Positions 503 to 20,803 of a DNA stretch of 64,000 bases are shown in pieces (within the stretch, counting starts at the first letter, position 1; each line of letters begins with the position of its first letter). The stretch is from the NCBI GenBank assembly GCA_016183615.1, contig JACPEG010000028.1, positions 1 through 64,000 on the forward strand. The letters run 5' to 3'. The translations under genes and the position numbers were made by a program. The notes beneath the pieces were generated by a model, which saw only the letters and a list, made by a program, of their open reading frames with translations, was not told where the DNA came from and did no database searches. The stretch is from Betaproteobacteria bacterium (GTDB lineage: Bacteria > Pseudomonadota > Gammaproteobacteria > Burkholderiales > UBA6910).

Positions 503-1213
503 TCACAGCTTGATGTAGGAGTAGCCTTCCTCGGCCTGGAGCCGGGCGATCTCGACGATGCCGGAGGGGACCAGGACCGCCTCGGGGATCACGCGGTCGG
601 CCTGGATGTTGCGGCGCCCGAGCGTGTTGCCGCAGATGCGGAAATCGACTCCGCGGCTTTTCAGTTGCGCCACCGCGGGCTGGTAGGGGTCACCGGCCTT
701 GTCCCGGGCGCCGCTGATCAGGAAATCCACTCCACTGTTGTGGGCGACCACGACCACCCTGGTCCGGGGCGCGGCGTCGAGCAGGTTGGAAAGATTTCTG
801 AACGCCGTCGCCACGTCATCGCTGCTGTTGACGTGATAGACCAGCTTTCTTTCGGCCGGCGCCTGGGCCACCTGGGTCGGGGCGGGAGGCTGATGCACAG
901 TTACCCACGCCGTCACGGCAATCAGGAGCGCTGCGGCGGCCATGGCGGTGGCCGGCCAGGGCTGCAGCCAGGCCGGAATCCGGGTCCTGCCCTCCGCCGC
1001 GAGCCGCGTGCGCAGCGCCTGGCGCAATCCCGCCGGCGCCGCGTGGTAGCGCGCCTTGCCGGTGACCGCGCTTCGCAGCGCCTGCTGCCCGGTAAAGCGC
1101 TCGCGGCAGGCGGCGCACTCCCGCAGGTGATCCTCCAGCGCGAGGGCGCTGGCGAGATCCAGCTCTCCGTCCAGGTAGCCGTGCAGCAGCCGGTTGGTTT
1201 CAACGCATAGCAT
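503..1213 (-). CDS. Anti-sigma factor: zinc finger, one TM helix, DsrE-like C-terminal domain
   Basis: This 236-residue protein has three parts. Residues 1-40 form a zf-HC2/ZAS domain (C3, then H29-x3-C33-x2-C36), the usual binding module for an ECF sigma factor. Residues about 87-106 form one hydrophobic helix. Residues about 122-236 form a DsrE-like domain with a single cysteine (C194 in RICGNT) and the ending VPSGIVEIARLQ. The separate DsrE protein encoded at 1915-2382 has the matching segments ACQNTM and VPAGIVEIINKQ. The expected topology puts the zinc finger in the cytoplasm and the DsrE domain in the periplasm. The gene overlaps the end of the sigma gene by 14 bases, so the pair is co-translated. 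Domain identity is seen directly; a sensing role for the DsrE part is inferred. Confidence 0.85.
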   Translation of the reverse strand: MLCVETNRLLHGYLDGELDLASALALEDHLRECAACRERFTGQQALRSAVTGKARYHAAPAGLRQALRTRLAAEGRTRIPAWLQPWPATAMAAAALLIAVTAWVTVHQPPAPTQVAQAPAERKLVYHVNSSDDVATAFRNLSNLLDAAPRTRVVVVAHNSGVDFLISGARDKAGDPYQPAVAQLKSRGVDFRICGNTLGRRNIQADRVIPEAVLVPSGIVEIARLQAEEGYSYIKL

Positions 1214-1748
1214 TTGTCTTTTCCTTGCCCAGTCGTTTCAGGATCGCCTCCTGCAGCAGCCGGCGCCCGCGGGCGAGCCGCGACATCACCGTGCCGATGG
1301 GGATGTTCGCCACCAGCGCGATTTCCCGGTATGAGAGCCCCTCCAGCTCCCGCAGCACCAGCGCTTCCCGGAACTCGACCGGCAGCCCGGCGAGCGCGGC
1401 GTTCACCAGTTCCCGGTCGACGCTCTCCATGGCCGCCGCTTCGGGAGTGGGTCCCGGCGCGATCAGTTCCTCGCCGTGCAGCTCCTCGTCGAGCACCTCC
1501 ATGATTCCCGGCGGGCGGTTTCGCCCGTGGAGCGTGAAGCAGGCGTTGCGGACGATGGCGAGAAACCACGCTCTTGCGTCGTCGCCCCGCAGCGAATCGA
1601 AGAACTTGTAGGCCCGGAGGAACGCCTCCTGCACGGCATCCCTCGCATCGTCCTCGTCGCGGGTGAGCCAGCACGCCAGGTTATGGGCGGCGTCCAAGTG
1701 GGGCAGGACCAGCCGCTCGAAGCGCCGGCACCGGTCGTTCGCTGCCAA
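1200..1748 (-). CDS. ECF-type RNA polymerase sigma factor
   Basis: The protein is 182 residues, typical for ECF sigma factors. Region 2 is visible around DARDAVQEAFLRAYKFFDSL, and region 4 around FREALVLRELEGLSYREIA followed by IPIGTVMSRLARGRRLL, the helix-turn-helix that reads the -35 box. The acidic linker (EVLDEELHGEELI) is ordinary. The start is an ATG preceded on the minus strand by AGGAGGAG. It is co-transcribed with the membrane anti-sigma factor and is divergent from a dsrE-like/soxB-like pair. A matched promoter motif upstream of both units suggests that it activates its own operon and the divergent one. Confidence 0.92.
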   Translation of the reverse strand: MAANDRCRRFERLVLPHLDAAHNLACWLTRDEDDARDAVQEAFLRAYKFFDSLRGDDARAWFLAIVRNACFTLHGRNRPPGIMEVLDEELHGEELIAPGPTPEAAAMESVDRELVNAALAGLPVEFREALVLRELEGLSYREIALVANIPIGTVMSRLARGRRLLQEAILKRLGKEKTNAMR

Positions 1749-1760
1749 GCTTTCTCCTCC

Positions 1761-1792
1761 TATAAGACTGCCGCAGCGGCCATTTTATTCCC
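1761..1792 (-). promoter_or_regulatory. Candidate ECF promoter of the sigma/anti-sigma operon
   Basis: Read on the minus strand, GGGAATAAAAT (1792-1782) is followed by CAGTCTTATA (1770-1761). The first base of CAGTCTTA lies 22 bases after the first base of GGGAATAAA. The forward promoter at 1811-1840 has the same element and the same 22-base offset. The ribosome-binding site AGGAGGAG follows at once, so the 5' leader would be short. The assignment rests on the divergent symmetry and not on a known consensus for this sigma group. Confidence 0.55.
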
Positions 1793-1806
1793 GCATCCCC
1801 GAGACA

Positions 1807-1840
1807 GTCCGGGAATAAATCCCGGACCCGGGCGGTATTA
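1807..1840 (+). promoter_or_regulatory. Candidate ECF promoter of the dsrE-like/soxB-like operon, with inverted repeat
   Basis: GGGAATAAAT (1811-1820) is followed 22 bases later by CGGTATTA (1833-1840), mirroring the promoter of the sigma gene. The -35-like box also sits inside a perfect 8-bp inverted repeat, GTCCGGGA and TCCCGGAC with a 5-base spacer (1807-1827), absent from the minus-strand promoter. That palindrome could be an operator. It also resembles the core of the REP hairpins near base 150, so a repeat origin is not excluded. Confidence 0.5.
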
Positions 1841-1914
1841 ATGGGCAATGGCGCCTGCTGTCCTATTGGCGCCAGCGTAACAGAATTCCAGTCCACGACT
1901 AATAGGAGGAGACC

Positions 1915-2382
1915 ATGCTGCGAAGCAAAATCGCCGTTGTACTGTTGTCGGGCGCCCTGGGCTCGATGGGCTTCCATTCGATTGCCTGGGCCGGCGCCGA
2001 GGCCGCGAAGGCTCCCGCGCAGGCCGCGTCTCAGGCCGTAAAGGAAAAGGTGGTGCTCCAGGTGAGCGATGGCGACCCCAAAACCTGGAACCAAGCCCTC
2101 AATGTGGTCAAGAACCTCCAGCAGGCCTACGGGAAGGACAAGGTGGACATCGAGGTGGTGGCCTTCGGCAACGGCATCGGGATGTTGAAGATGGACTCCG
2201 AGGTGGGCAACCGCGTCGGCGAAACCATCGACGGCGGGGCGAAGGTCTACGCCTGCCAGAACACCATGCGCGGGCGCAAGCTCACCAAGGAGGACATGCT
2301 TGCGACAGTGGGTTACGTCCCGGCCGGCATCGTCGAAATCATCAACAAGCAGCGCGAGGGCTGGGCGGTGGTCCGGCCCTGA
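1915..2382 (+). CDS. Periplasmic DsrE-family protein
   Basis: The product is 155 residues: an N-terminal signal peptide (about 1-27, hydrophobic core IAVVLLSGALGSMGF, then AWAGAEA) and a DsrE/DsrF-like domain (about 43-155). One cysteine, C114, sits in the motif YACQNTMRG, where DsrE-family proteins carry the residue that can bind a sulfane sulfur. The start follows AGGAGGAG at ideal spacing. It is the first gene of the operon divergent from the ECF sigma pair and lies 73 bases before the SoxB-like gene. A role in binding or handing over reduced sulfur in the periplasm is inferred from the family. Confidence 0.85.
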   Translation: MLRSKIAVVLLSGALGSMGFHSIAWAGAEAAKAPAQAASQAVKEKVVLQVSDGDPKTWNQALNVVKNLQQAYGKDKVDIEVVAFGNGIGMLKMDSEVGNRVGETIDGGAKVYACQNTMRGRKLTKEDMLATVGYVPAGIVEIINKQREGWAVVRP

Positions 2383-2455
2383 CCCGGGCGGCGGGGACGT
2401 CGTGGTGCTCAACCGGCGCCGCGGCGATAACGATTAGAACAGCAGGAGGAGCCTC

Positions 2456-4186
2456 ATGACTCGACATTTCGTGTCGTGCCTTGCCGTTGCCGCCCTCTGC
2501 GCCGTGACGGGTGCCGCCCGAGCCGGTGCGAGCGGCGAGATCACCCTCATCCACATCGGCGACATCCACGGGCACCTGGTGCCCCGGGTCAACCTGCGCA
2601 GCGACTCCAGCGGCAAGATGGAAGGCGGCCTCGCCCGCATGGCCGCGAAGATCCAGGAAATCCGCAAGGCGAGTCGCAGCAACCTGCTCATCAACACCGG
2701 CGACACCATCCAGGGCTCGGCCGAGGCGCTCTATACCCGGGGCCAGGCGCTGGTGGACGTGGTGAACCTGCTGGGGCTCGACGCCTATGCCCCCGGCAAC
2801 TGGGAGTTCGTTTACGGCACCGAGCGCTTCCTGGAGCTGTTCACCGGGGAGCGGCCCAAGGCCCCCTGGAACACCGTCGCCGCCAATGTCTATTACAGCA
2901 AGGCCGAGGAGGAGAAGGGCTCCCCCTATGCGGCGAAGGGCGGCCAGCGGGTGCTGCCGCCGTATCTCGTCCGGGAGATGGGCGGGCTCAAGGTGGGCAT
3001 CATCGGGCTCACCACCCGGCGCGGACCCCAGGTGGTCGGCCGCGCCGTCACCAAGGGCTTCCGCTTCACCAGCGGGGACGCCGAGCTGAAGGAGCTGGTG
3101 CCGCTGCTCAGGGAAAAGGAGAAGGTGGATCTCCTGATCCTGATCTCGGAACAGGAGCTGGCGAACAATGTCCGCATGGCGGAAGCCTATCCGGGAATCG
3201 ACGTGGTGCTCTCCTCCGACATGCACGAGGTGACCCGCAAGCCCATCGTGGCCAGGACCGGGACGCTGCTCATCGAGGAGGGGCAGGATGGCACCATGCT
3301 CGGGGAGCTCAGGCTGAAGGTGGAGAATGGCAAGGTGACCGCCTGGGACTGGAAGCCCCACGTCATCACCAGCGACCTCCGCGAGGACAAGCAGGTGGCG
3401 GCCAAGGTGGCGGAAGTGCGCCGGACCTTCCTTGCGGGAAAGCATTTCACCCGCCACGTGAACCCGTTCAACGGCTCGAAGCTCAAGCGGCCCATCGACA
3501 CGGTGGTGGGCTACACCATGCAGCCCCTGCACCGCTCCAACTTCTCCCGGGAGGAGATGCCGGCGCTGATCGAGGGCTCGTCCCACGATTTCCTGACGGA
3601 CGCCTTCCGCTATGAATGCCGCGCCGACATCGGCGCGATCCGCGGCTTCCGCTACGGGACCCACGTGGCGAAAGGCTCCCTCACCATGGAGGACCTCTAC
3701 CACTTCATTCCGATCGGGCCCCAGATTGCCTGCGGCACCATCAAGGGCCGCCAGCTCAAGAACCAGATCGAGAACTCGGCTTCCGGCAGCCTCGACCCGG
3801 ACATGACCAAGTGGACCGGCGGCTGGTTATTCAACTTCAGCGGCGTCACTTTCGATTTCGACCCCTGGAAACCCAGCGGCCAGCGCGCATCCAACATCCG
3901 GGTGCGCGGCGCACCCCTGAATCCCGACGCGGATTATAGCTACGCGTCCTACTGGTACGCGGCCGATCCGGATCTCATCAACGTGGTGCCCTCGAAGAAC
4001 ATCCGCGTGGTGAAGGACGAGGACGGCAGCCCCATGGACGGCACCGAATCCGTGGTGCGCTACATCCGCACCTGGCCGGAGCGCATGGTGCGCACCGACC
4101 TCAACCGCATCCGACTGCTGGAGCCGCTGCCCGCGGCCCGCTACGGCTTCCCGGAAATCCAGCCCCTGGCGGGCGCCAAGCGCTGA
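2456..4186 (+). CDS. Secreted SoxB-like metallophosphatase / 5'-nucleotidase superfamily protein
   Basis: The protein has 576 residues with a signal peptide (about 1-23, cleavage after ARA). The N-terminal metallophosphatase domain shows IGDIHGH (D36, H38), NTGDTIQGS (D83) and GNWEFVYG (N115, W116). The C-terminal domain contains GAIRGFRYGTH followed by LTMEDLYHFIPIGP, as in SoxB and 5'-nucleotidases. The Trp after N115 and the overall layout resemble SoxB thiosulfohydrolase. However, the SoxB signature DGGDTW is NTGDTI here, the LSHxG histidine is replaced (ISEQE, E232), and GGHxH reads SSDMH (D255, H257). A SoxB relative with altered metal ligands is the safest call. It is co-transcribed with the DsrE-like gene and ends in a strong terminator. 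Confidence 0.8.
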   Translation: MTRHFVSCLAVAALCAVTGAARAGASGEITLIHIGDIHGHLVPRVNLRSDSSGKMEGGLARMAAKIQEIRKASRSNLLINTGDTIQGSAEALYTRGQALVDVVNLLGLDAYAPGNWEFVYGTERFLELFTGERPKAPWNTVAANVYYSKAEEEKGSPYAAKGGQRVLPPYLVREMGGLKVGIIGLTTRRGPQVVGRAVTKGFRFTSGDAELKELVPLLREKEKVDLLILISEQELANNVRMAEAYPGIDVVLSSDMHEVTRKPIVARTGTLLIEEGQDGTMLGELRLKVENGKVTAWDWKPHVITSDLREDKQVAAKVAEVRRTFLAGKHFTRHVNPFNGSKLKRPIDTVVGYTMQPLHRSNFSREEMPALIEGSSHDFLTDAFRYECRADIGAIRGFRYGTHVAKGSLTMEDLYHFIPIGPQIACGTIKGRQLKNQIENSASGSLDPDMTKWTGGWLFNFSGVTFDFDPWKPSGQRASNIRVRGAPLNPDADYSYASYWYAADPDLINVVPSKNIRVVKDEDGSPMDGTESVVRYIRTWPERMVRTDLNRIRLLEPLPAARYGFPEIQPLAGAKR

Positions 4187-6332: not shown

Positions 6333-6482
6333 ATAGCGGAAAGTGCCGAATACGTTCCAGCGTCAACAAGTACGCAACCAGAAGACCTGCCGTGATGTCC
6401 TCTTCGTATCGCGGGCCTGCGGCATCGGTTGGCATGCGTCCCGGCCCGTGACGTTTTCCCGGCGCCTGGCGTGAGTCGCGAG

Positions 6483-8528
6483 ATGGGCGAGGTGCTGCTC
6501 CAGCCGCTTGCGCTCATGTACCTCGCCGCGTTCGCGACAATTCTCTCGGGTGTCGCCGCCGCCGGCGCCGTCCGCCGCTATCCCTTGCTTCTCCACGCCG
6601 GCTCGTTTGCCCTGCTTGCCGTTGCGGGCGCGGCGGGAGTCGCCGGCGGCGGCTGGGCGATGCTGGATGATCTGACGGTGACCGATACGATTGCGTTCGG
6701 CCTGCCCTGGCTGCGCTGGCACCTGCGCCTGGATCCGCTCTCGGGCTTCTTTTCGGTGCTGCTGGGCACTCTGGTGCTCGCCGTCGCGCTGTACGGCCCG
6801 CGCTACACGCGCGAATTCGGCCGCGGCGAGTCGGCACAGCCCCTGCCTCCGCTCGGAATTTTCACCGCAGTGTTCGTGCTCGGAATGCAGATGCTTCTGC
6901 TGGCCGACGATGCCTTCATGTTCCTGGTGTTCTGGGAGATGATGTCGGTGGGCGGCTACCTTCTCGTCGCCTATCAGCACCAGCATCCGGCCAACCGCCA
7001 CGCCGCCTTCCTGTACCTGCTGCTGGCGCACATCGGTTCGCTCGTCATCCTTATCTCCTTTGGCGTGCTCGCCGCCTTTGGCGGCGGCTTTGCCTTCGAC
7101 CAGATGCGCGCGGCGGAACTTTCGCCGCTGTGGGCCACGCTCGCCTTCACCTTTGCACTCGTCGGCTTCGGCACCAAGGCCGGCATCGTGCCTCTGCACG
7201 CGTGGCTGCCGGAAGCGCACCCGGTGGCGCCTTCGCACGTTTCGGCTTTGATGAGCGGCGCCATGATCAAGATGGGAATCTACGGGATCGTGCGCGTCAC
7301 CTACGACTTGATCGGGCAGATCCAATGGCAGTGGGGCGTGGTGGTGTTGCTGGTGGGCACCGCCTCGGCCCTGCTCGGCGTGCTGTACGCGCTCATGCAG
7401 CACGACCTCAAGCGCCTGCTTGCCTATCACTCGATTGAGAACATCGGCATCGTCCTGATGGGACTGGGGCTGTCCATGATCTTTCTCGGCACCGGGCACA
7501 AGACGCTCGGCGTGCTCGGACTGGTGGCCGCGCTCTACCACACGATCAACCACGCGCTGTTCAAGGCCCTGCTGTTCCTTGGCGCCGGCGCGGTGCTGCA
7601 TCGGACCCACGAGCGCGACCTGGAGCACATGGGAGGGTTGATCCACCGCATGCCGGTCACCGCTGCGTTCTTCCTCATCGGTTGCGTCGCGATCTCCGCA
7701 TTGCCGCCGCTCAACGGTTTCGTCTCCGAATGGCTCACCTTTCAGACTGCGCTGCAGGCGCCGCGGCTCGAAAATGGCGTGCTGCGTGCCGTCATCCCCA
7801 TCACCGCCGCCACGCTGGCGTTGACCGGGGCGCTCGCGGCGGCGTGCTTCGTGAAGGCCTTCGGCGTAGCCTTCCTCGGTCAGCCCCGATCCCGTCATGT
7901 TGCGCGCGCGCGGGAAGTCGGCCCCGGCATGCTCGCAGGCATGGGGCTGCTGTCCGCGCTGTGCCTGGTGCTTGGGGTAATACCCACCAGCGTAATCGAG
8001 GCCATGGCCCCGATTACGCAGATGCTGGTGGGCAAGGCGCTGCCCTCGGCCAGCGTCCGCGGCTGGCTCTGGCTGACGCCGGTGGCTCCCGAAGTCGCGT
8101 CCTACTCGGCGCCATTCGTGGTGCTGGGAGTTGCGCTCGCCTTCCTGCTGGGCTACCTGCTGCTCAAGCGCCGTGCCGGCCCGATCCGGCGTGGCGCCGC
8201 GTGGGATTGCGGATTCGGACCGCTTACCACACGCATGCAATACACCTCGACCGCCTACAGCCAGCCGATCCGGCGGGTGTTTGCGCCGACCTGGAAGCTC
8301 GACGAACGAATAGAGGAGGTGCGCGAACCGGGCGTACCGGGTCGCCTGCGCGCGCTGCACTACCAGTTCCATGCGGTCGACTGGTCCTGGCTCATGGGCT
8401 ACCTGCCGATCGGGCGGGCAGTGCTCACCGCGGCCCGCGTCGTCGGCAGGATTCAGACCGGCAGCATCCACACCTACCTCGTCTACTCGTTCGTGACGCT
8501 GCTGCTGTTCCTATGGATCATTACCTGA
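6483..8528 (+). CDS. hyfB: Hyf-like complex, cluster 1: HyfB-type antiporter-like membrane subunit
   Basis: The 681-residue polytopic protein belongs to the NuoL/MrpA-like proton-translocating family. The conserved TM5 glutamate is in LVFWEMMS (E152) and the TM7 lysine in GFGTKAGIVPLHAWLPEAHP (K232); a further lysine is in GAMIKMGIYG. The segment AAWDCGFGPLTTRMQYT near the C-terminus is typical of HyfB/HycC. It opens a tightly packed six-gene operon and overlaps hyfC by 16 bases. The ATG at 6483 is chosen; GTG at 6471 is an alternative and neither has a clear ribosome-binding site. It should pump or conduct H+ (or Na+) coupled to redox chemistry in the peripheral arm. Confidence 0.88.
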   Translation: MGEVLLQPLALMYLAAFATILSGVAAAGAVRRYPLLLHAGSFALLAVAGAAGVAGGGWAMLDDLTVTDTIAFGLPWLRWHLRLDPLSGFFSVLLGTLVLAVALYGPRYTREFGRGESAQPLPPLGIFTAVFVLGMQMLLLADDAFMFLVFWEMMSVGGYLLVAYQHQHPANRHAAFLYLLLAHIGSLVILISFGVLAAFGGGFAFDQMRAAELSPLWATLAFTFALVGFGTKAGIVPLHAWLPEAHPVAPSHVSALMSGAMIKMGIYGIVRVTYDLIGQIQWQWGVVVLLVGTASALLGVLYALMQHDLKRLLAYHSIENIGIVLMGLGLSMIFLGTGHKTLGVLGLVAALYHTINHALFKALLFLGAGAVLHRTHERDLEHMGGLIHRMPVTAAFFLIGCVAISALPPLNGFVSEWLTFQTALQAPRLENGVLRAVIPITAATLALTGALAAACFVKAFGVAFLGQPRSRHVARAREVGPGMLAGMGLLSALCLVLGVIPTSVIEAMAPITQMLVGKALPSASVRGWLWLTPVAPEVASYSAPFVVLGVALAFLLGYLLLKRRAGPIRRGAAWDCGFGPLTTRMQYTSTAYSQPIRRVFAPTWKLDERIEEVREPGVPGRLRALHYQFHAVDWSWLMGYLPIGRAVLTAARVVGRIQTGSIHTYLVYSFVTLLLFLWIIT

Positions 8529-9469
8529 CGGCCTGGCTGCTCGCGGCCGCGCAGACCGCATTATTCGTTGCCGCGGCGCCCCTGCTCGCCGGCTGGGTGA
8601 AGCGCGTCAAGTGCCACATGCAGAATCGGGCGGCGCCACCGGTCGCCCAGGTCTACCGTGATCTGGCCAAGCTCTTCCGCAAACAGCCGGTGATCGCGGA
8701 AAATGCGTCGTGGGTGTTCCGCGCGACGCCGTACATCGTGTTTGGGGCGATGCTGCTCTCGGCGGCCGCGATCCCGCTGGTGGCGGTGGATCTGCCGACC
8801 GGCGCCATCGCCGACGTCATCGTGCTGGTCGGCTTCGCAGCGCTTGCGCGTTTCTTCACGGCGCTGGCCGGCCTGGACATCGGCACCGCCTTCGGCGGCA
8901 TGGGCTCGTCGCGGGAGATGACGGTGGCGGCGCTGGCCGAGCCGGCCATGCTGATGGCGGTATTCACCCTTTCCATGACCGCCAATTCGACCAACCTCTC
9001 AGCAGTCATCAACTTCAACCTCGATGCGGGCCTGGTGCTGCGGCCGTCGTTCCTGTTCGCATTGTCCGGGTTCGCCATGGTGGCGGTGGCGGAGACCGGC
9101 CGCATCCCGGTGGACAACCCGGCCACCCACCTGGAACTCACCATGATTCACGAGGCCATGATTCTGGAGTACTCGGGCCGGCACCTGGGGCTGATCGAAT
9201 GGGCGAATCAGATCAAGCTCATGATCTACGCGGTGCTGATGGCGAACGTCTTCTGGCCGTGGGGCATTGCGCGCGAATTCACCGCGCCCGCGCTGGCGCT
9301 GGGCGCAGTGGCCATCGCCGCCAAGTTGGCGCTGCTTGCCGTGGCCCTGGTGGTGTGGGAAACGGTGATGGCCAAGATGCGGCTGTTTCGCGTGCCGCAG
9401 TTCCTCGGCTTCGCGTTGCTGTTGTCGCTGCTCGGCATGCTCACTCACGTGGTGCTGGAAACGGGTTAG
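8513..9469 (+). CDS. hyfC: Hyf-like complex, cluster 1: HyfC (NuoH-like) membrane subunit
   Basis: The 318-residue protein is homologous to HyfC/HycD and NuoH, the subunit joining the peripheral and membrane arms. It carries the charged signature IPVDNPATHLELTMIHEAM followed by LEYSG, and the acidic patch DIGTAFGGMGSSREMT, typical of the quinone or hydrogenase interface. About eight hydrophobic segments are visible. The ATG at 8513 lies inside the end of hyfB, implying translational coupling. Its length matches E. coli HyfC. Confidence 0.9.
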   Translation: MDHYLTAWLLAAAQTALFVAAAPLLAGWVKRVKCHMQNRAAPPVAQVYRDLAKLFRKQPVIAENASWVFRATPYIVFGAMLLSAAAIPLVAVDLPTGAIADVIVLVGFAALARFFTALAGLDIGTAFGGMGSSREMTVAALAEPAMLMAVFTLSMTANSTNLSAVINFNLDAGLVLRPSFLFALSGFAMVAVAETGRIPVDNPATHLELTMIHEAMILEYSGRHLGLIEWANQIKLMIYAVLMANVFWPWGIAREFTAPALALGAVAIAAKLALLAVALVVWETVMAKMRLFRVPQFLGFALLLSLLGMLTHVVLETG

Positions 9470-9471
9470 CG

Positions 9472-10200
9472 ATGACGCAGTTCGCCCAGATCGGGGTATT
9501 CAACCAGGCGATCGTCCTGTTTGCGGCGCTGGTGCTGTTCACTTCGTTCATCATGCTTGCCCAGACCCGCATGCTGCCCCTGATCTTCTCCTTCGCCTGG
9601 CAGGGCGCGTTGCTGGCGGTGGCGACCGCCCTGGTGGCGTTCGTGTCCGGACATTCGCACTTGTACGTCTCGGCTCTCATGACGGTGGCCCTCAAGGTGG
9701 TCGCGATCCCGTGGCTGCTTTACCGCCTGACGCTGCAGCTGAAAATCCAGTTCGACGCCGAGCCGGTTCGCCACCCGTCGCTGCTGCTGCTGGGGGGGGC
9801 GGGGCTGGTCATCTTCAGCTATTCCGTGGCGCTGCCCGTCGTGCATCGCTCGGGACTCGCCACGCGCAACACGATCGCGGTAAGCGTCGCGGTCATCCTG
9901 ATCGGCATGCTGCTCATGATCGCGCGCAAGAAGGCGCTGGCGCAGGTGATCGGTTTCATGTCGATCGAAAACGGACTGTTCTTCTCGGCGGTTGTCTCGA
10001 CCTACGGAATGCCGCTGGTGGTGGAACTGGGCGTGGCCTTTGACGTGCTGGTTGCGGCCATCCTTTTCGGGGTGTTTTTTCTGCACATGCGCGAGTCCTT
10101 CGACTCGCTCGACGTGGATCGCCTGACGCGGCTGTCCGAGGCGCGGGACAGTCTGCCCGGCCACGGCGAGGCCGGGGAGGCGCCCGAGAGTCATCCATGA
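9472..10200 (+). CDS. hyfE: Hyf-like complex, cluster 1: HyfE (NuoK-like) membrane subunit
   Basis: The 242-residue membrane protein resembles HyfE, with a NuoK-like half. Diagnostic stretches are FAWQGALLAVATALVAF, LKVVAIPWLL and VIGFMSIENGLFFSA, which contains the membrane glutamate expected in the proton path. The hydrophilic C-terminal tail of about 25 residues is longer than in the second cluster. It starts two bases after the hyfC stop and overlaps hyfF by four bases (ATGA). Confidence 0.87.
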   Translation: MTQFAQIGVFNQAIVLFAALVLFTSFIMLAQTRMLPLIFSFAWQGALLAVATALVAFVSGHSHLYVSALMTVALKVVAIPWLLYRLTLQLKIQFDAEPVRHPSLLLLGGAGLVIFSYSVALPVVHRSGLATRNTIAVSVAVILIGMLLMIARKKALAQVIGFMSIENGLFFSAVVSTYGMPLVVELGVAFDVLVAAILFGVFFLHMRESFDSLDVDRLTRLSEARDSLPGHGEAGEAPESHP

Positions 10201-11666
10201 CGCTGCTCGGCATCACGCTCGTCGCCCCGCTTGCCGGCTGCCTGCTTCTGGCTTTTCTTGGCCACCGGAAGGCGGCGGGCTGGCTCAATATCGGGGCGAG
10301 CGGTGTCAGCTTCGGCGCCTCGGCGGCGCTGGCGCTTGACGTTTTCACCGGCGGTCCACAGCTCTCGGCCGGGAAGTACTTCTACATCGACGCCTTCAAC
10401 GTCTACCTGGTGGCGCTGACCGCCTTCGTCGGGCTCACCACGGCCATCTTCTCGCGCCCCTACATGCGCCACGAGGTCGAGCGGGGTCGCGTCACGGACC
10501 GGCGCATGCGCCTGTATCACTCGATGTACCAGGGCTTTCTTTTCACGATGCTGCTGGCGCTGTCCACCAACAACCTGGGAATTCTCTGGGTAGCCATGGA
10601 AGCGGCCACCCTGTCCACGGTCCTGCTGGTATCGCTGTATCGCACGCCGGAATCCATCGAGGCGGCGTGGAAGTATTTCGTACTGTGCGGCGTCGGCATC
10701 GCCCAGGCGCTGTTCGGCACGGTGCTGGTGTACTTCGCGGCGGAACAGCACCTCGGCGGCGAACGCGAGGACACGCTGCTTTGGACGGTGCTGCATGGCG
10801 CCGCGGCCAACCTCGATCCGGCCGTGCTTTCGCTTGCCTTCGTATTTCTGCTCGTGGGCTATGGCACGAAGGTCGGGCTTGTGCCACTGCACAACTGGTT
10901 GCCTGACGCGCATTCGGAAGGGCCGACGCCCATGTCGGCCGTGCTCTCCGGACTGCTGCTCAACGTCGCTCTCTATGCGCTGGTGCGGCTGAAAATGCTG
11001 GTGGATGCCTCGCTGCACACCTCGCTCGCGGGCTATCTCATGATGGGTTTCGGGCTGGTCTCCTTCATGGTCGCCGGGCTGTTCCTGCACCGCCAGCACG
11101 ATATCAAGCGCATGTTCAGCTATTCCTCGATCGAGCACATGGGGTTGATGACCTATGCATTCGGCCTGGGCGGGCCGCTTGCCACCTTCGGCGCGCTCCT
11201 GCACATGACGGTGCATTCGCTCACCAAGAGCGCCATCTTCATCACGGTCGGCTACGCTTCGCAACTCGCGGGAACCCAGCGTATCGACCGCATCCGCGGC
11301 ATCATCCGCACCCAGCCGGCGATCGGCTGGAGCCTGCTGATCGGCACGATTGCCATCGCCGGATTCCCGCCTTTCGGCGTGTTCACCAGCGAGTTCCTGC
11401 TGATCACCGCCACGATGAAGGCGTGGCCGTGGCTCGCGGTGCCGCTGCTCATCGGCTTCGGGGTCGCCTTCGCCGGCCTGTTCCGCCACCTGCAGCCGAT
11501 GGTTTTCGGCGAACCGCCGGCGGGCCAGAAGCCGTTGCACGCGAACATGCTGCCGGTGATGGTGCACCTGGTGCTGGTGCTGTGGCTGGGCCTTTCGATC
11601 CCGGCTTTCCTGGCGCGCTGGTTCGAGCAGGCCACCGTGCTCATTTCGGGAGCCTCGCCGCTATGA
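10197..11666 (+). CDS. hyfF: Hyf-like complex, cluster 1: HyfF-type antiporter-like membrane subunit
   Basis: This is a second NuoL/M/N-like proton channel subunit (489 residues). Key membrane residues are E135 in WVAMEAAT and K225 in GYGTKVGLVPLHNWLPDAH. The segment TPMSAVLSGLLLNVALYAL follows as in HyfF. With hyfB this gives two antiporter-like channels per complex; a HyfD homologue, present in E. coli hydrogenase 4, is absent. It overlaps hyfE and hyfG by ATGA. Confidence 0.9.
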   Translation: MTLLGITLVAPLAGCLLLAFLGHRKAAGWLNIGASGVSFGASAALALDVFTGGPQLSAGKYFYIDAFNVYLVALTAFVGLTTAIFSRPYMRHEVERGRVTDRRMRLYHSMYQGFLFTMLLALSTNNLGILWVAMEAATLSTVLLVSLYRTPESIEAAWKYFVLCGVGIAQALFGTVLVYFAAEQHLGGEREDTLLWTVLHGAAANLDPAVLSLAFVFLLVGYGTKVGLVPLHNWLPDAHSEGPTPMSAVLSGLLLNVALYALVRLKMLVDASLHTSLAGYLMMGFGLVSFMVAGLFLHRQHDIKRMFSYSSIEHMGLMTYAFGLGGPLATFGALLHMTVHSLTKSAIFITVGYASQLAGTQRIDRIRGIIRTQPAIGWSLLIGTIAIAGFPPFGVFTSEFLLITATMKAWPWLAVPLLIGFGVAFAGLFRHLQPMVFGEPPAGQKPLHANMLPVMVHLVLVLWLGLSIPAFLARWFEQATVLISGASPL

Positions 11667-13243
11667 GCACGGACGCCTGGATCGGCGGGTTGATGGAATC
11701 GCTGTCCGGCGCCGGCGCCACGGCCGAGCAGGCGCCGGGCCTGTCGCCGGCGCGGCTCATCGCGATCGATCCCGGCGCGTGGGGCGTTCTGGGCGAAGTC
11801 GCCGCGCGCCACGGCTGCCGCTGGGTCGCCGGCTGGGGCGAAGACATGGGCGAGTCAATCCGCATCAACGCCTGTTTCGAGAAAGCCGGCGCCTACCTTC
11901 TCGCCCGCACCGCGGTGCCGCGCGCCCATCCGGTTTTGCCTTCGCACACGCCCGTGTTCCCCGCCGCCGACCGGCCCGAGCGGCACACCCAGGATCTGCT
12001 CGGGGTGAGCTTTTCCGACCATCCGGATGCGCGGCGCTGGACACGGCATCAGGCCTGGAAGACTTCCGAGCACCCCTTGCGGCGGAATTTCCCGGTGTCC
12101 GGCCACCCGCCGGAGAAAACGCCGCCGGATCACCAGTACCCCTTCCTCCTCGCCCAGGGCAGCGGCGTCTGCGAGATACCGGTCGGACCGGTTCACGCCG
12201 GCATCATCGAGCCGGGGCACTTCCGCTTTCAGGCGGTGGGCGAAACCGTGCTCAACCTCGAACAGCGTCTCGGTTACGTGCACAAGGGCATCGAGAAGCT
12301 CGCCGAAGGCCGCGACGCAGAAGGACTGGCACGCCTGGCCGGCCGCATCTCGGGCGACTCCACCGTGGCGCATGCCTGGGCGGCGTGCATGGCGATGGAG
12401 AAGGCGGGCAACATTACGGCGCCGCCACGCGCCGCCTGGCTGCGGGCGCTGATGTGCGAGCGCGAGCGGGTGGCCAACCATCTCGGCGACATCGGCGCCA
12501 TGTTGAACGACATCGCCTTCAGCTTCGGCTTCTACCACTTCGCGCGGCTGCGCGAGGACTGGCAGCGCGTCTCGCGCGAAGCCTTCGGCCACCGTTTCAT
12601 GATGGATTGCATCGTCCCCGGCGGCGTGGCGCCGGATCTCCCGCCGCGTTTCATTGCGGCAATGCGCGATGAAGCCCGCGCCTTACGCAAACAGATCGGC
12701 AAGCTGATGGCGATCATCAACGATCTGCCCTCGGTCGCCGACCGGGTGCGCGGCGCCGGCGTGCTGAAGCCCGAATACGCCAGGGCGCTCGGCTGCGTCG
12801 GCTACGTCGGGCGCGCCTCGGGCATGGATTCGGATGTCCGGCGCGATGCGCCCTACCCCCCCTATGACCGCCTTCAGGTCGCAGTGCCGGTGCATCACTA
12901 CGGCGACGTCAACGCACGCGCGCGCACCCGCCTGGAGGAAATGGCCGTCTCCTTCGATCTGATCGAAGCACTGCTCGCCGGCCTGCCGGCCGGACCGATA
13001 CGCGCCCCCTGGCCGCCGCCCGCGGCGGATGCGGAAGGCCTGGGACTCGTCGAGGGATGGCGCGGAGAGATCCTGAGCTTTGTGCGCTTCGGCGCGGACG
13101 GGCGAATCGCGCGCTTCTTCGCGCGCGACCCGTCATGGACCACCTGGCCGGCGCTGGAACTGCTGATCCGCGACAACATCGTTCCCGATTTCCCGCTCTG
13201 CAACAAGTCGGTGAACGGTTCGTACTCCGGCCATGACCTGTGA
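11663..13243 (+). CDS. hyfG: Hyf-like complex, cluster 1: HyfG/HycE-type large subunit without NiFe ligands
   Basis: The 526-residue protein fuses a NuoC-like N-terminus (about 1-150; DLLGVSFSDHPDARR, then HPLRRNF) to a NuoD/large-hydrogenase-subunit domain. In hydrogenases the NiFe site is held by R-x-C-G-x-C and D-P-C-x-S-C. Here the first motif is R228-I-S-G-D-S (S230, S233). The C-terminal one is N-G-S-Y-S-G-H-D-L (S520, G523), with the protein ending at that point. All four cysteines are therefore missing and H2 chemistry is not expected. The conserved GPVHAGIIEPGHFRF and the HKGIEKLAEG segment remain, so assembly with the NuoB-like subunit is likely. The substrate is unknown. Confidence 0.88.
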   Translation: MSTDAWIGGLMESLSGAGATAEQAPGLSPARLIAIDPGAWGVLGEVAARHGCRWVAGWGEDMGESIRINACFEKAGAYLLARTAVPRAHPVLPSHTPVFPAADRPERHTQDLLGVSFSDHPDARRWTRHQAWKTSEHPLRRNFPVSGHPPEKTPPDHQYPFLLAQGSGVCEIPVGPVHAGIIEPGHFRFQAVGETVLNLEQRLGYVHKGIEKLAEGRDAEGLARLAGRISGDSTVAHAWAACMAMEKAGNITAPPRAAWLRALMCERERVANHLGDIGAMLNDIAFSFGFYHFARLREDWQRVSREAFGHRFMMDCIVPGGVAPDLPPRFIAAMRDEARALRKQIGKLMAIINDLPSVADRVRGAGVLKPEYARALGCVGYVGRASGMDSDVRRDAPYPPYDRLQVAVPVHHYGDVNARARTRLEEMAVSFDLIEALLAGLPAGPIRAPWPPPAADAEGLGLVEGWRGEILSFVRFGADGRIARFFARDPSWTTWPALELLIRDNIVPDFPLCNKSVNGSYSGHDL

Positions 13244-13261
13244 GATGAGGAGCGCCGTCCC

Positions 13262-13804
13262 ATGCTGAGGATACTGGGCAAGATACAGCGCCTCGGCATC
13301 ATCACCGAGCCGCTGCCGGAGCCGGATCGGGCGGCGCTGGAGCAGGTCGGGGAACAACTTAAAGCGAGAATCGGCGAGATATTCGGCGGCAGCCTCGCCA
13401 TCCGGGAAGTGGATGCGGGCTCCTGCAACGGCTGCGAGCTGGAGATTCAGGCTCTCAACAACCCTTACTACGGGATAGAGCGCTTTGGGGTGCATTTCGT
13501 CGCCAGCCCGCGCCATGCCGACCTGCTGCTTGTCACCGGTCCGGTATCCCGCCACATGGAGGCGGCGTTGCGCCGGACTTACGACGCCACGCCCGAGCCC
13601 AAGCTCGTCATTGCGGTAGGCGAGTGCGGCGCGAATGGCGGCGAGTTCGGCGTCAATTACGCTTCGTGTGGCGCCGTGGCGAACGTCCTGCCGGTGGATG
13701 CCGTGATCCGCGGCTGCCCGCCCACGCCCCTGAGCCTGATGCTCGGCCTGCTCGAGGCCATCGGCCGGCGCCGAGTCGGGGCGCCGGGCGAAAAAGCGGA
13801 TTGA
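13262..13804 (+). CDS. hyfI: Hyf-like complex, cluster 1: HyfI (NuoB-like) Fe-S subunit
   Basis: The 180-residue protein carries the NuoB/small-hydrogenase-subunit ligand set for one 4Fe-4S cluster: C55-x2-C58 in DAGSCNGCELE, C122 in AVGECGANGG and C152 in GCPPTP. It is shorter at the C-terminus than E. coli HyfI. The start follows AGGAG. With the NiFe site missing in the partner large subunit, this cluster must pass electrons to or from another cofactor or a quinone. It is the last gene of cluster 1. Confidence 0.9.
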   Translation: MLRILGKIQRLGIITEPLPEPDRAALEQVGEQLKARIGEIFGGSLAIREVDAGSCNGCELEIQALNNPYYGIERFGVHFVASPRHADLLLVTGPVSRHMEAALRRTYDATPEPKLVIAVGECGANGGEFGVNYASCGAVANVLPVDAVIRGCPPTPLSLMLGLLEAIGRRRVGAPGEKAD

Positions 13805-13939: not shown

Positions 13940-15952
13940 ATGAGCCAGGCAGGACCGTTACCCATCGGTATCATCCTCGGGGTAATTGTGTTCTGGCTCG
14001 GCATCGCCCTGGTCGGGCTTGCGGCCCAGCGCCGGTTCCGCCTGGTGAGCCAGGTGCTGTTCCCGCTCGGCGGCGCCGGCGCGCTGGTGCTGGCGGGCGC
14101 CGCCTTCGCCGCGCTGGGCCAGGCGCCGGCCTCCCTGGTCCTTCCCCTGGGGCTGCCGGACCTGCCGTTTCATCTCCGGCTCGATGCCCTTTCGGCGTTC
14201 TTCCTGGTGCTTCTGGGGGGCACCTCCTTCGCCATTTCGATTTTTTCCGCCGGCTATTTCCGCCAGGCCGAGGGCACGCCTCCGGGCCTGCTGTGCCTGC
14301 AATACCACATGTTTCTCGCCAGCATGGCGGGGGTGCTGCTCGCCGATGACGCCTATCTCTTCATGGTGGCGTGGGAGACCATGGCCCTGTCCTCCTACTT
14401 CCTGGTCACCACTAACCACCGCATTCCCGAGATCCGCTGGGCCGGCTTTCTCTATCTGCTGATCGCCCACGTGGGGGCCATCGCCATCCTGCTCTGCTTC
14501 GGCGCCATGCAGGGATTCCAGGGGGACTACACCTTTGCCGCCATGCGCCAGGCCCATCTCTCCGGCTTCTGGGCCAGCGTCACCTTCCTGCTGGCGCTGT
14601 TCGGGTTCGGGGCCAAGGCGGGGCTGCTGCCGGTCCATGTGTGGCTGCCGGAGGCCCACCCGGCGGCGCCCTCGCCGGTGTCGGCCATGATGAGCGGGGT
14701 GATGCTGAAGACCGCCGTATACGGCCTGCTGCGGGTCACCTTCGATCTGCTCGACACCCAGCTCTGGTGGTGGGGGGTGCTGGCATTGGGGCTGGGCCTA
14801 ATCACCGCCCTCTACGGGGTCATGTTTGCCGCGGTGCAGGCGGACATGAAGCGGCTCCTTGCCTACTCCTCCGTCGAGAACATCGGCATCATCGTTGCGG
14901 GAGTGGGGCTTGCCATCGTGTTCCGAGCCTACGGCATGAACACGCTCTCGGCGCTGGCCATGACCGCCGCCCTGTACCACTGCCTGAATCACGCCTTCTT
15001 CAAGAGCCTGCTGTTTCTCGCCACCGGCCACGTGCTGCACGCCACGGGCGAGCGCAACCTGGGGAAACTGGGCGGACTGATCCACCGCATGCCCTGGGTC
15101 GCGATCATCGCCCTGGTGGGCACGCTGGCCATCGCCTCGCTGCCGCCGTTGAACGGCTTCGTCTCCGAGTGGCTGCTGCTGCAGGCCTTCCTGTTTTCCC
15201 CGGACCTGCCCAATCCCTATCTGCACATGCTGATCCCCTCGGCGGCAGGGGCGCTGGTGCTGGCGGCGGCGCTGGCCGGCTACGTGATGGTGAAATTCTA
15301 CGGGGTGATTTTCCTGGGGCGCCCCCGGGAGGACAAGCTCGCCCAGGCCCATGACGCGGGCAACTGGGAAAAGGCCGGGCTGCTGTGGCTGGCCGCCGGC
15401 TGCCTGCTGCTGGGAATCTTTCCGGTCTACGTCATCGCCCAGCTGGATTTCGTGACCGTGGACCTGATCGGCCGGGCGCTGGGCGATACCGCCGGCAAGA
15501 CCGGGTGGCTGTTCCTGACCCCGGTCGCGCCCGAGCGGGCGAGCTACAGCCCGCTGCTATTTCTGGTGGTGATCGCGGTGGGGGTGGGGTTCACCTACTG
15601 GATGGTGCGGATGTTCTACCACGGACGGCTGCGCCGGGGCGATCCCTGGGACTGCGGCTACCCCGCGCAGACGCCGCGCATGCAGGACACGGCGGAGGGC
15701 TTCGGTCAGCCCATCCGCCAGATTTTCGAGCCGTTCTTCGTCATCGAACGCGAGTTGCCAACCCCCTTCGATGGGGCGCCGCGCTACCGGATGACGACCC
15801 GTGACCGGCTGTGGCACTGGGTATACCTGCCGGTGGCGCGGCTCGCCGAGCGGATGACCTCGCTGGTGGCGGTGCTGCAGCAGGGGCGCATCCACGTCTA
15901 TCTCATGTACAGCTTCGGCACCCTGCTGTTGCTGCTGCTGTTCGCGCGCTGA
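13940..15952 (+). CDS. hyfB: Hyf-like complex, cluster 2: HyfB-type antiporter-like membrane subunit
   Basis: The 670-residue paralogue of the protein at 6483-8528 has the same landmarks in the same order: MVAWETMALSSYFLV with the TM5 glutamate, FGFGAKAGLLPVHVWLPEAHP with the TM7 lysine, SGVMLKTAVYGLLRV, and DPWDCGYPAQTPRMQDT near the C-terminus. Divergence from the first copy is substantial along the whole length, so this is not a recent duplication. It is preceded by an extended -10 promoter and followed by hyfC after ten bases. Confidence 0.88.
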   Translation: MSQAGPLPIGIILGVIVFWLGIALVGLAAQRRFRLVSQVLFPLGGAGALVLAGAAFAALGQAPASLVLPLGLPDLPFHLRLDALSAFFLVLLGGTSFAISIFSAGYFRQAEGTPPGLLCLQYHMFLASMAGVLLADDAYLFMVAWETMALSSYFLVTTNHRIPEIRWAGFLYLLIAHVGAIAILLCFGAMQGFQGDYTFAAMRQAHLSGFWASVTFLLALFGFGAKAGLLPVHVWLPEAHPAAPSPVSAMMSGVMLKTAVYGLLRVTFDLLDTQLWWWGVLALGLGLITALYGVMFAAVQADMKRLLAYSSVENIGIIVAGVGLAIVFRAYGMNTLSALAMTAALYHCLNHAFFKSLLFLATGHVLHATGERNLGKLGGLIHRMPWVAIIALVGTLAIASLPPLNGFVSEWLLLQAFLFSPDLPNPYLHMLIPSAAGALVLAAALAGYVMVKFYGVIFLGRPREDKLAQAHDAGNWEKAGLLWLAAGCLLLGIFPVYVIAQLDFVTVDLIGRALGDTAGKTGWLFLTPVAPERASYSPLLFLVVIAVGVGFTYWMVRMFYHGRLRRGDPWDCGYPAQTPRMQDTAEGFGQPIRQIFEPFFVIERELPTPFDGAPRYRMTTRDRLWHWVYLPVARLAERMTSLVAVLQQGRIHVYLMYSFGTLLLLLLFAR

Positions 15953-15962
15953 GGGGCGGAGG

Positions 15963-16916
15963 ATGCAGCTCACGATTTCCGGACTCCTCTACCAGACCAT
16001 CCAGTCGCTGCTGCTGGTGCTGGTGGCGCCGCTGTTCCTGGGCTGGGTCAACCAGTGCCGGGCCTGGTTCCAGAACCGCAGCGGGCCGGGGCTGTTCCAG
16101 CCTTACCGCAATCTTCTCAAGCTGGTGAACAAGGACGCGGTGATGGCCCACGGCGCCTCCGGCCTGTTCCGCACCACGCCCTACGTGCTGTTCGCCTGCA
16201 TGTGGCTCGCCGCGGGCATCGTTCCGGTGCTCGCCACCGACCTGCCCTACGCGCCGGCGGCGGACGTGATTGCGCTGGTGGGGGTGTTCGCGCTGGCCCG
16301 GGTGTTCCTGGCGCTGGCCGCCATGGACATCGGCACCGCGTTTGGCAGCCTCGGCGCCCGGCGCGAGATGCTGGTGGCGTTTCTCGCCGAGCCGGCGCTG
16401 CTCATGGTGTTCTTCACGGCCTCCCTCATCAGCCATTCCACGTCGTTGACCACCATCGTCGAGACCCTGGCCCACCGCGAGTTCGTGGTCTATCCCAGCA
16501 TGGCCTTCGCCGCGGTGGCCTTCCTGCTGGTGTTCCTGGCCGAGAACGCCCGCATCCCGGTGGACAACCCCGCCACCCACCTGGAGCTCACCATGATCCA
16601 CGAGGCGATGATTCTCGAGTACTCGGCGCGCCACCTGGCGCTCATCGAATGGGCGGTGGCCATCAAGCTCACCGCCTACACCGCCATCGGCATCGCCCTG
16701 TTCATGCCCTGGGGCGTGATCGAGGCGGGCCACTGGGAGGGGCTGCCGACGGCCCTCGGGGCTTTCGTGGCCAAGCTGCTGGCGGCGGGCCTCGGGCTCG
16801 CGCTGCTGGAAACCGTGTCGGCCAAGATGCGCATCTTCCGCGCCCCGGAGTTCCTCGGCACCGCGTTCCTGCTGGGGGTGCTCGGCATGCTGATCCGTTT
16901 CCTGCTGGAGAGCTGA
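15963..16916 (+). CDS. hyfC: Hyf-like complex, cluster 2: HyfC (NuoH-like) membrane subunit
   Basis: The 317-residue NuoH-like protein carries ARIPVDNPATHLELTMIHEA followed by MILEYSARHLALIEWA, and DIGTAFGSLGARREML. It is the counterpart of 8513-9469 and nearly equal in length. The start follows a good ribosome-binding site (GGGGCGGAGG). It is predicted to sit at the membrane end of the redox arm. Confidence 0.9.
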   Translation: MQLTISGLLYQTIQSLLLVLVAPLFLGWVNQCRAWFQNRSGPGLFQPYRNLLKLVNKDAVMAHGASGLFRTTPYVLFACMWLAAGIVPVLATDLPYAPAADVIALVGVFALARVFLALAAMDIGTAFGSLGARREMLVAFLAEPALLMVFFTASLISHSTSLTTIVETLAHREFVVYPSMAFAAVAFLLVFLAENARIPVDNPATHLELTMIHEAMILEYSARHLALIEWAVAIKLTAYTAIGIALFMPWGVIEAGHWEGLPTALGAFVAKLLAAGLGLALLETVSAKMRIFRAPEFLGTAFLLGVLGMLIRFLLES

Positions 16917-16917
16917 G

Positions 16918-17577
16918 ATGGGCATCCCGGTTACCAGTCAGATGATCAATATCCTGGCGTCCCTCATGCTGCTGATCGCGTTTGCCATGCTTTCCCAGCG
17001 GCGCATCATCTCGCTCATCAACCTGTTCGCCTGGCAGGGCGCGGTGCTGGTGGCGAGCACGCTTATCGTTGCCGGCACCACGGGACAGGAACACCTGTTT
17101 TACTCGGCGCTGATCACCCTGGTGCTGAAAGTGATCCTGCTGCCCTGGATCCTGCACCGGCTGATCCGCCGGCTCAACGTGAAATGGGATGTGGAAACCC
17201 TGATCAACATCCCCACCACCATGCTGGCCGGGCTGCTGCTGGTGATCGTCGCCTTCAACCTGGCGCTGCCCATTTCCGAGATGGCGAGCACCGTCACCCG
17301 CTCGACCCTCGGCATCGCCATGGCCTGCGTGCTGCTCTCGTTCCTGATGATGATCACCCGCAGCAAGGCGGTGCCCCAGGTGATCGGCTTCCTGTCCATG
17401 GAAAACGGCCTGTTCTTCGCCGCCACCAGCGCCACCTACGGCATGCCCATGGTGGTGGAGCTGGGCATCGCCCTCGACGTGCTGGTGGGCACGCTCATTT
17501 TCGCCATCTTCTTCTTTCAGATCCGGCAGACCTTCGACAGCCTGGACCTGAAGCACATGGAAAAGCTCAAGGAATGA
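16918..17577 (+). CDS. hyfE: Hyf-like complex, cluster 2: HyfE (NuoK-like) membrane subunit
   Basis: The 219-residue membrane protein shares FAWQGAVLVAST, LVLKVILLPWIL and QVIGFLSMENGLFFAA with the cluster 1 HyfE, including the intramembrane glutamate. It starts one base after the hyfC stop. Its own stop overlaps the edge of a REP-like palindrome that separates it from hyfF. Confidence 0.88.
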   Translation: MGIPVTSQMINILASLMLLIAFAMLSQRRIISLINLFAWQGAVLVASTLIVAGTTGQEHLFYSALITLVLKVILLPWILHRLIRRLNVKWDVETLINIPTTMLAGLLLVIVAFNLALPISEMASTVTRSTLGIAMACVLLSFLMMITRSKAVPQVIGFLSMENGLFFAATSATYGMPMVVELGIALDVLVGTLIFAIFFFQIRQTFDSLDLKHMEKLKE

Positions 17578-17636
17578 GTAGGAGTGGCTTCAGCCGCGAA
17601 TGGGCGGCCGGGAAGCGCGGATAAATCCGCTCCTAC
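17578..17636. repeat. REP-like palindrome between hyfE and hyfF of cluster 2
   Basis: The element runs from GTAGGAGTGGCTTCAGCCGC to CGCGGATAAATCCGCTCCTAC, with complementary ends and an internal hairpin. It shares its GTAGGAG/CTCCTAC ends with the three copies near base 150. It begins at the hyfE stop codon and ends 23 bases before the likely hyfF start. It interrupts what is an overlapping gene junction in cluster 1. Confidence 0.8.
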
Positions 17637-17659
17637 ACCAAGGGATAAGGTATACGACG

Positions 17660-19108: not shown

Positions 19109-19123
19109 GATCGCGGAGCAGGC

Positions 19124-20671: not shown

Positions 20672-20684
20672 CTGCAAAAACCCT

Positions 20685-20786
20685 GAGCCACAGAGCGCAC
20701 AGAGAACACAGAGAAATTCGAATGAAATGCTTCAGGACTGGAAAAGGATATCGGTTTTCTCTGTGAACTCTGTGTTCTCTGTGGCT
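20685..20786. repeat. Long CACAGAG-type inverted repeat between hyfG and hyfI
   Basis: The left arm (20685-20716, containing CACAGAGAACACAGAG) and the right arm (20755-20786, containing CTCTGTGTTCTCTGTGGC) pair over about 32 bases with few mismatches, around a loop of about 38 bases. In RNA it would form a very long hairpin in the middle of the operon. It fills most of the hyfG-hyfI gap. Confidence 0.85.
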
Positions 20787-20803
20787 AGAGATTTGGAACT
20801 TGC

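Follow-up and report, generated by a model that had tools for sequence, protein, structure and literature searches.

The first 64,000 nucleotides of a contig from a Betaproteobacteria bacterium of the UBA6910 lineage (assembly GCA_016183615.1, contig JACPEG010000028.1, positions 1-64,000 of the forward strand; hereafter, the window) carry a gene pair for an extracytoplasmic function (ECF) sigma factor and a membrane anti-sigma factor, the latter fusing a zinc-binding domain, one transmembrane helix and a DsrE domain predicted to be periplasmic. This pair is probably a sulfur-responsive transmembrane switch for sulfur oxidation, in which the DsrE domain would act as the periplasmic sensor. The proposal builds on the architecture of the protein, its charge-based topology, a conserved cysteine, paired promoters, linkage to sox genes and recurrence in two lineages, all of them established by computation.

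Gene Layout and Domain Architecture

The anti-sigma factor (236 amino acids) is encoded at 503-1213 on the minus strand, and the start of its gene overlaps by 14 bases with the gene of the sigma factor (182 amino acids; 1200-1748, minus strand). The latter has the Pfam domains Sigma70_r2 and r4_2 and scores 83 bits against TIGR02937 (cut-off 42.9); with regions 2 and 4, its small size and the adjoining anti-sigma gene, it belongs to the ECF sigma factors. Divergent from this pair, an operon on the plus strand encodes a secreted stand-alone DsrE protein of 155 amino acids with a single cysteine, C114 (1915-2382; Pfam DsrE, E 9e-8; match to 1l1s, E 3e-15), followed by a periplasmic SoxB/UshA-related metallophosphatase (2456-4186). 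These genes and coordinates agree with an initial annotation made from the sequence alone. The window begins at the contig end, with only 502 bases visible downstream of the anti-sigma gene.

Regarding the anti-sigma factor, Pfam places zf-HC2 at residues 3-37 (E 8.5e-9; 35.8 bits, cut-off 22.2), including the zinc ligands H29-x3-C33-x2-C36 (1106-1129, minus strand), and DsrE at residues 135-235 (E 3.8e-11; 43.6 bits, cut-off 22.7). The transmembrane helix, at about residues 88-106 (896-952, minus strand), is indicated by hydropathy and charge and by a helix in an AlphaFold model, and the whole DsrE domain spans residues 121-236 (506-853, minus strand). The model, built from ten fusions, has a mean pLDDT (predicted local distance difference test) of 85, and most of residues 121-236 and of the N-terminal helices exceed 90. 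Among PDB structures, it is most similar to MTH1491 (1l1s) and ST0148 (2pd2), both with a TMt of 0.91, followed by DsrE/DsrF/YchN/TusD folds, and the best solved relatives by sequence are the same two structures for the DsrE domain and RsrA and RsiW for the N-terminus. Consequently, the fusion of a ZAS zinc finger, one transmembrane helix and a DsrE-like domain with a single cysteine, C194 (codon at 632-634, minus strand), as first described, is borne out, and residues 122-236 have the DsrE fold and not an unrelated one. The H-x3-C-x2-C domain above the Pfam cut-off and the adjoining sigma gene place the protein among the zf-HC2/ZAS anti-sigma factors, with a predicted role in sigma inhibition, while score, fold and active-site cysteine place its C-terminal part in the DsrE/DsrF family, with predicted carriage of sulfane sulfur.

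Two lysine or arginine residues precede the transmembrane helix and none follows it, which predicts an N-in/C-out orientation; the same charge rule gives N-in for 52 of 55 fusions. The DsrE domain is thus predicted to lie outside the cytoplasm, in computational agreement with the initial annotation. The latter also pointed to a shared DsrE fold in the protein of the facing operon. The common fold is confirmed by Pfam, but a close kinship is not, as the two sequences are 26-29% identical and the nearest relatives of the anti-sigma domain belong to another stand-alone DsrE subfamily, with 44-55% identity.

Occurrence and Conservation of the Fusions

Profile searches showed that the design recurs widely: relatives that match over the full length are present in 75 or more genomes. 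About 54-56 fusions were examined, all from Gammaproteobacteria, the set size varying slightly by analysis. They form two lineages: the window type, with the zinc ligands H-x3-C-x2-C (kept in nine aligned fusions), and a second type without them, which was reached through weak full-length matches elsewhere in the class. For the window type, three more full-length fusions were found among 100 relatives and two more by a search of the order, while a profile search of contigs gave another four, from metagenome-assembled genomes (MAGs) named Betaproteobacteria or Burkholderiales, plus one already found. Orthologues of the window anti-sigma factor are full-length in eight further genomes, and a ninth (L137) matches from residue 30. 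A contig search with the single anti-sigma protein as query gave no relatives, whereas the alignment query gave those from MAGs. The profile of the second lineage has full-length matches in 65 of 368 other sampled genomes of the class (about a sixth), and in a search of the phylum (299 genomes) full-length fusion matches were confined to members of the order.

In each of the 56 aligned DsrE domains of the fusions, C194 is the sole cysteine, and H127 and Y233 are likewise invariant. The sigma gene lies directly upstream of the fusion in the 54 systems examined closely, one further system (L212) having been left unpaired with a sigma factor by the script. Meanwhile, a hydrophobic signal region is present in all 50 stand-alone DsrE relatives.

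Some candidates were discarded as fusions. Acidobacterial matches are stand-alone DsrE proteins, as are the matches with in-frame stops in two genomes (G046 and G025), which had looked like broken fusions until the match was seen to run into upstream sequence. Plasmid records contained DsrE domains only and no fusion. In addition, two tandem pairs of sigma factor and DsrE-bearing anti-sigma factor stand within one locus in two genomes (L194 in G324 and L198 in G208), and a DsrE-like protein adjoining an anti-sigma factor (L095 1304-1732, G252) has a very long branch and lacks the cysteine.

Predicted Promoters and Regulon

A motif of fixed spacing, GGGAATAAA-N15-GTMTTA, points toward both the sigma gene and the DsrE operon. 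A motif scan predicts the ECF promoter of the sigma/anti-sigma operon at 1763-1792 on the minus strand (GGGAATAAA-N15-GTCTTA) and that of the DsrE operon at 1811-1840 on the plus strand (GGGAATAAA-N15-GTATTA). The initial annotation had made the divergent operon depend on the sigma factor, and the presence of the same predicted promoter before both operons is consistent with it at the computational level. Three sites in the 3.7-Mb genome match the strict pattern, two of which lie at this locus, and six genomes together have 13, compared to none for the reversed control; most of the extra matches in these six genomes precede genes unrelated to the system and were ascribed to chance.

Among the fusion systems, all window-type intergenic regions and most of the others contain GGGAATAAA or a near variant, followed after 15 bases by a GTMTTA-like element, and often do so in both directions. 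A promoter score of at least 20 was obtained toward the sigma gene for 65% of 54 systems and away from it for 46%, compared to 1.6% and 1.5%, respectively, in shuffles. Beside these, a strict match at 1501-1528 of L130 (G003) stands 26 bases before the gene of a secreted thioredoxin-fold protein (1555-2583; Thioredoxin_2, E 3e-39), possibly SoxW-like, which is a candidate for an extra regulon member. In both G001 and G003 (L123 and L124), GGGAATAA-type sites also precede another ECF sigma/anti-sigma pair, of a type without a DsrE domain; cross-talk is possible.

Link to Sulfur Oxidation Genes

Several fusion systems are associated with sox genes. In G605, the divergent operon reads DsrE-soxY-soxZ-(soxA)-soxB followed by a YeeE-type transporter (Pfam SoxY, SoxZ and Sulf_transp); in G069, the sigma/anti-sigma pair is divergent from YeeE-soxYZAXB, with SoxA identified; and in G265, the system is surrounded by a sox cluster, DsrE, a porin and YeeE. 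The genes of the sigma factor, the DsrE-bearing anti-sigma factor and soxX/Y/Z/A/B follow each other in this order, closely spaced on the same strand, in G254, G364 and G023, so that in some genomes the pair stands at the head of the operon for thiosulfate oxidation. At the genome level, 51 of the 65 genomes with a fusion have SoxB proper, as do 70 of the 303 other genomes (an odds ratio of 12 with a Fisher p of 7e-17, ignoring relatedness). SoxB is present in all six of the window-type genomes tested, and dsrA in three of them, including that of the window. In a survey of neighbors of 53 systems, a stand-alone DsrE gene is near 37 and a Porin_O_P-like gene near 25.

Two neighborhood details were also observed. 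The Porin_O_P-like outer-membrane protein follows the stand-alone DsrE in these 25 systems, many of them of the second lineage (e.g., L097 4280-5587 and L197 9411-10820). In G023, soxYZ is duplicated and flanks both sides of the pair (L241 5324-5794/4976-5287 and 7546-8016/7198-7509), both copies being equally identical to the reference genes.

The metallophosphatase of the window was initially called SoxB-like, which holds for its relatedness to SoxB but not for its identity. Pfam gives a metallophosphatase with a 5'-nucleotidase C-terminal domain, the architecture that it has in common with the thiosulfohydrolase SoxB (TIGR04486). Unlike SoxB, it lacks the N-terminal insertion and two metal-ligand histidines, as SHNG reads SEQE and GGHTH reads SSDMH, and its score against the SoxB profile is 196-210 bits, compared to a cut-off of 550; the sub-cut-off score and the lost ligands rule out SoxB itself. 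Relatives of this enzyme face two systems of the second lineage (L199 and L211), so that it may belong to the regulon.

Other observations weigh against a switch devoted to sulfur oxidation. Most second-lineage systems face a DsrE-porin pair and not sox, SoxB is missing by this profile from 14 of 65 fusion genomes, and the co-occurrence statistic treats related genomes as independent. The sox operon of the window genome itself (C60) lies elsewhere and has no strict promoter match. Moreover, GGAATA-type sites also precede related sigma factors without DsrE-type partners; the motif therefore marks the type of sigma factor and not sulfur as such, and it is the two-way placement that marks the target.

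Origin of the Two Lineages

The sigma tree places the window type together with sigma factors from Cupriavidus, Burkholderia, Janthinobacterium and Mesorhizobium plasmids. The anti-sigma factor of Burkholderia stagnalis, the only one of that group read full-length, has the zinc domain and a different periplasmic part. The second lineage is sister to RpoE6 of Sinorhizobium meliloti and a paralogue, with a split support of 100/99. The tree of DsrE domains shows those of the window type inside a subfamily of stand-alone secreted DsrE proteins, and the second type falls on the other side. A single origin of all fusion sigma factors is rejected on the sigma tree by the approximately unbiased test (p-AU 0.010), while the one-clade test on the DsrE tree (p-AU 0.084) agrees with two origins but is not decisive. 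Therefore, two independent captures of the DsrE domain by separate sigma lineages are favored by these trees, not proved.

Proposed Mechanism and Alternative Explanations

The anti-sigma factor would hold the ECF sigma factor inactive at the membrane, while its DsrE domain would read the sulfur state of the periplasm. Sulfane sulfur or a thiosulfate-derived species would be loaded on C194, either directly or via the secreted DsrE partner, whose shared fold could allow it to assemble into mixed oligomers with the DsrE domain. The change of state would then free the sigma factor, perhaps by regulated proteolysis, as in other membrane anti-sigma factors, and the freed sigma factor would transcribe its own operon and the divergent one from the paired GGGAATAAA-N15-GTMTTA promoters. 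The divergent targets would be DsrE and the SoxB-related enzyme in the window, and sox, the DsrE-porin pair or other genes in the relatives.

The steps of this scheme differ in confidence. The initial annotation had the DsrE domain sense persulfide, sulfane sulfur or the partner protein and release the sigma factor; the sulfur part of that claim gains support from the sox linkage, the co-occurrence with SoxB and the invariance of C194 in 56 of 56 domains, whereas ligand and release are proposals. Sulfur is likely to be the signal, and the DsrE domain is slightly less likely to be the part that senses it. On release by proteolysis we are evenly divided, persulfide chemistry at C194 falls a little short of that, and a role of the DsrE partner as sulfur donor or co-inducer is tentative. 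A broader and rather doubtful extension would make the DsrE-tethered anti-sigma factors a large, hitherto undescribed group of receptors for sulfane sulfur in the periplasm, which arose at least twice and act as the main Sox regulators in many Gammaproteobacteria through persulfidation of one cysteine passed from secreted DsrE carriers.

The DsrE domain could instead be a docking or oligomerization module that gauges how abundant or how fully occupied the secreted DsrE protein, or an outer-membrane porin/DsrE complex, is, with C194 merely inherited from the domain that was captured. Members of the DsrE family assemble into hexamers (DsrEFH, YchN), and the stand-alone DsrE gene beside most systems, usually within the predicted regulon, would close a feedback loop. 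Yet C194 and H127 are invariant in all 56 domains over two lineages, beyond what a passive docking surface needs, and this explanation is regarded as unlikely. Sensing by the zinc finger, as a cytoplasmic thiol-redox or metal sensor of the RsrA/ChrR kind for which the DsrE domain merely provides an anchor, would fit the intact H-x3-C-x2-C of the window protein and its resemblance to RsrA and ChrR, though below their cut-offs. The second lineage, however, lacks zinc ligands but retains the DsrE domain with its cysteine and the genetic surroundings, which makes zinc-thiol sensing a poor candidate for a general mechanism, and the zinc site of membrane anti-sigma factors is often structural (PMC7406223), leaving this idea highly improbable.

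A different signal is also conceivable, namely sulfite or sulfite stress, as for RpoE1 and RpoE4 of S. meliloti, or another envelope stress, with the DsrE and SoxB-related products serving detoxification and not energy metabolism. The ECF26-type promoter, the response of RpoE1 and RpoE4 to sulfite and the frequency of porins among the neighbors agree with it, but genes of sulfite dehydrogenase did not turn up among the recurrent neighbors (a weak point, as few are annotated), whereas sox operons did; we give it a minor share of the probability. Lastly, the fusion could be an accident or a gene-calling error confined to one genome, as the position of the window at a contig end might suggest. 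This is already refuted by the full-length relatives in so many genomes and by the sigma gene upstream in the systems examined, and its chance is negligible. The sulfur-responsive switch with a periplasmic DsrE sensor is retained as the probable function.

Other Features of the Window

Two tandem hydrogenase-4/complex-I-like operons with HyfB, C, E, F, G and I types of genes occupy 6429-13804 and 13940-21322 on the plus strand. Both large subunits have R(I/V)SGDS in place of the first nickel-binding cysteine motif of [NiFe] hydrogenases, so these complexes are probably not hydrogenases, judging from their sequences. Hyf-like genes occur near seven window-type systems. By the contig end, positions 120-390 contain repeated palindrome-like units (GTAGGAGGGGATTCATCCCCGAC ... 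GAATGAATTCGCTCCTAC) resembling REP-type repeats.

Comparison with Known Systems

The closest described systems are the ECF26 pairs RpoE1/RpoE4/RpoE6 with EcfR1/4/6 of S. meliloti (PMC3511301, PMC6180224, PMC6527743), which have in common with the window pair a membrane anti-sigma factor co-encoded with the ECF sigma factor and, as predicted for the window, autoregulation, a small local regulon and a response to sulfur compounds. The promoter listed for S. meliloti rpoE1, GCCGGGAATAAATCCATAGCCCTCCGTGTCTTATCCTCG, has the same motif and spacer as that of the window (GGGAATAAA-N15-GTCTTA), and the window promoters contain the -35 GGAATA and -10 GT of the ECF26 consensus, GGAATA/GT (PMC6180224). 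In a small tree, the second lineage is sister to RpoE6, and the window sigma factor falls outside the RpoE6 side, with C. necator/B. stagnalis-type sigma factors; judged by the promoter and this tree, placement in ECF26 is tentative. RpoE1 and RpoE4 respond to sulfite-generating compounds (PMC3511301), and the S. meliloti pairs differ from the fusions in targeting sulfite dehydrogenase genes and others, not DsrE or sox. Moreover, the C-terminal part of the RpoE6-linked anti-sigma factor has no DsrE motif by reading, unlike the fusions described here.

RsrA, ChrR and RsiW, of the ZAS group, share the zf-HC2 domain, and RsrA and RsiW are the best solved matches of the N-terminus. The window protein is below the curated cut-offs of the RsrA (42.9 against 62.5 bits) and ChrR (20.4 against 124.5 bits) families and is itself membrane-anchored with an external DsrE domain. 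Control of sox by ECF sigma factors has a precedent in Arcobacter butzleri, where they were shown to alter sox expression, in a paper that does not contain the word DsrE (PMC3445524).

MTH1491/ST0148 (1l1s, 2pd2), DsrEFH, TusBCD and YchN have the same fold and cysteine position as the DsrE domain of the window. Known members of this family are, to our knowledge, stand-alone cytoplasmic sulfur-transfer proteins or uncharacterized, and the domain described here differs in being tethered outside as part of a regulator. The initial annotation knew of no anti-sigma factor of this design; indeed, no described example of a DsrE-bearing anti-sigma factor was found in the literature searched, as judged from titles and abstracts, and a passing mention of the domain pair in a large table is conceivable, but the design is widespread in genomes and not one-off. 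The result offers a concrete candidate for the way in which many sulfur-oxidizing Gammaproteobacteria perceive extracytoplasmic thiosulfate or sulfane sulfur, namely a single receptor family in which one cysteine is invariant, the promoter is defined and sox genes are linked in operons, and the DsrE family would have a regulatory role if the proposal is true. The parts, namely ECF sigma factor, ZAS domain and DsrE, are all known, and it is their union as a probable sulfur sensor that is new.

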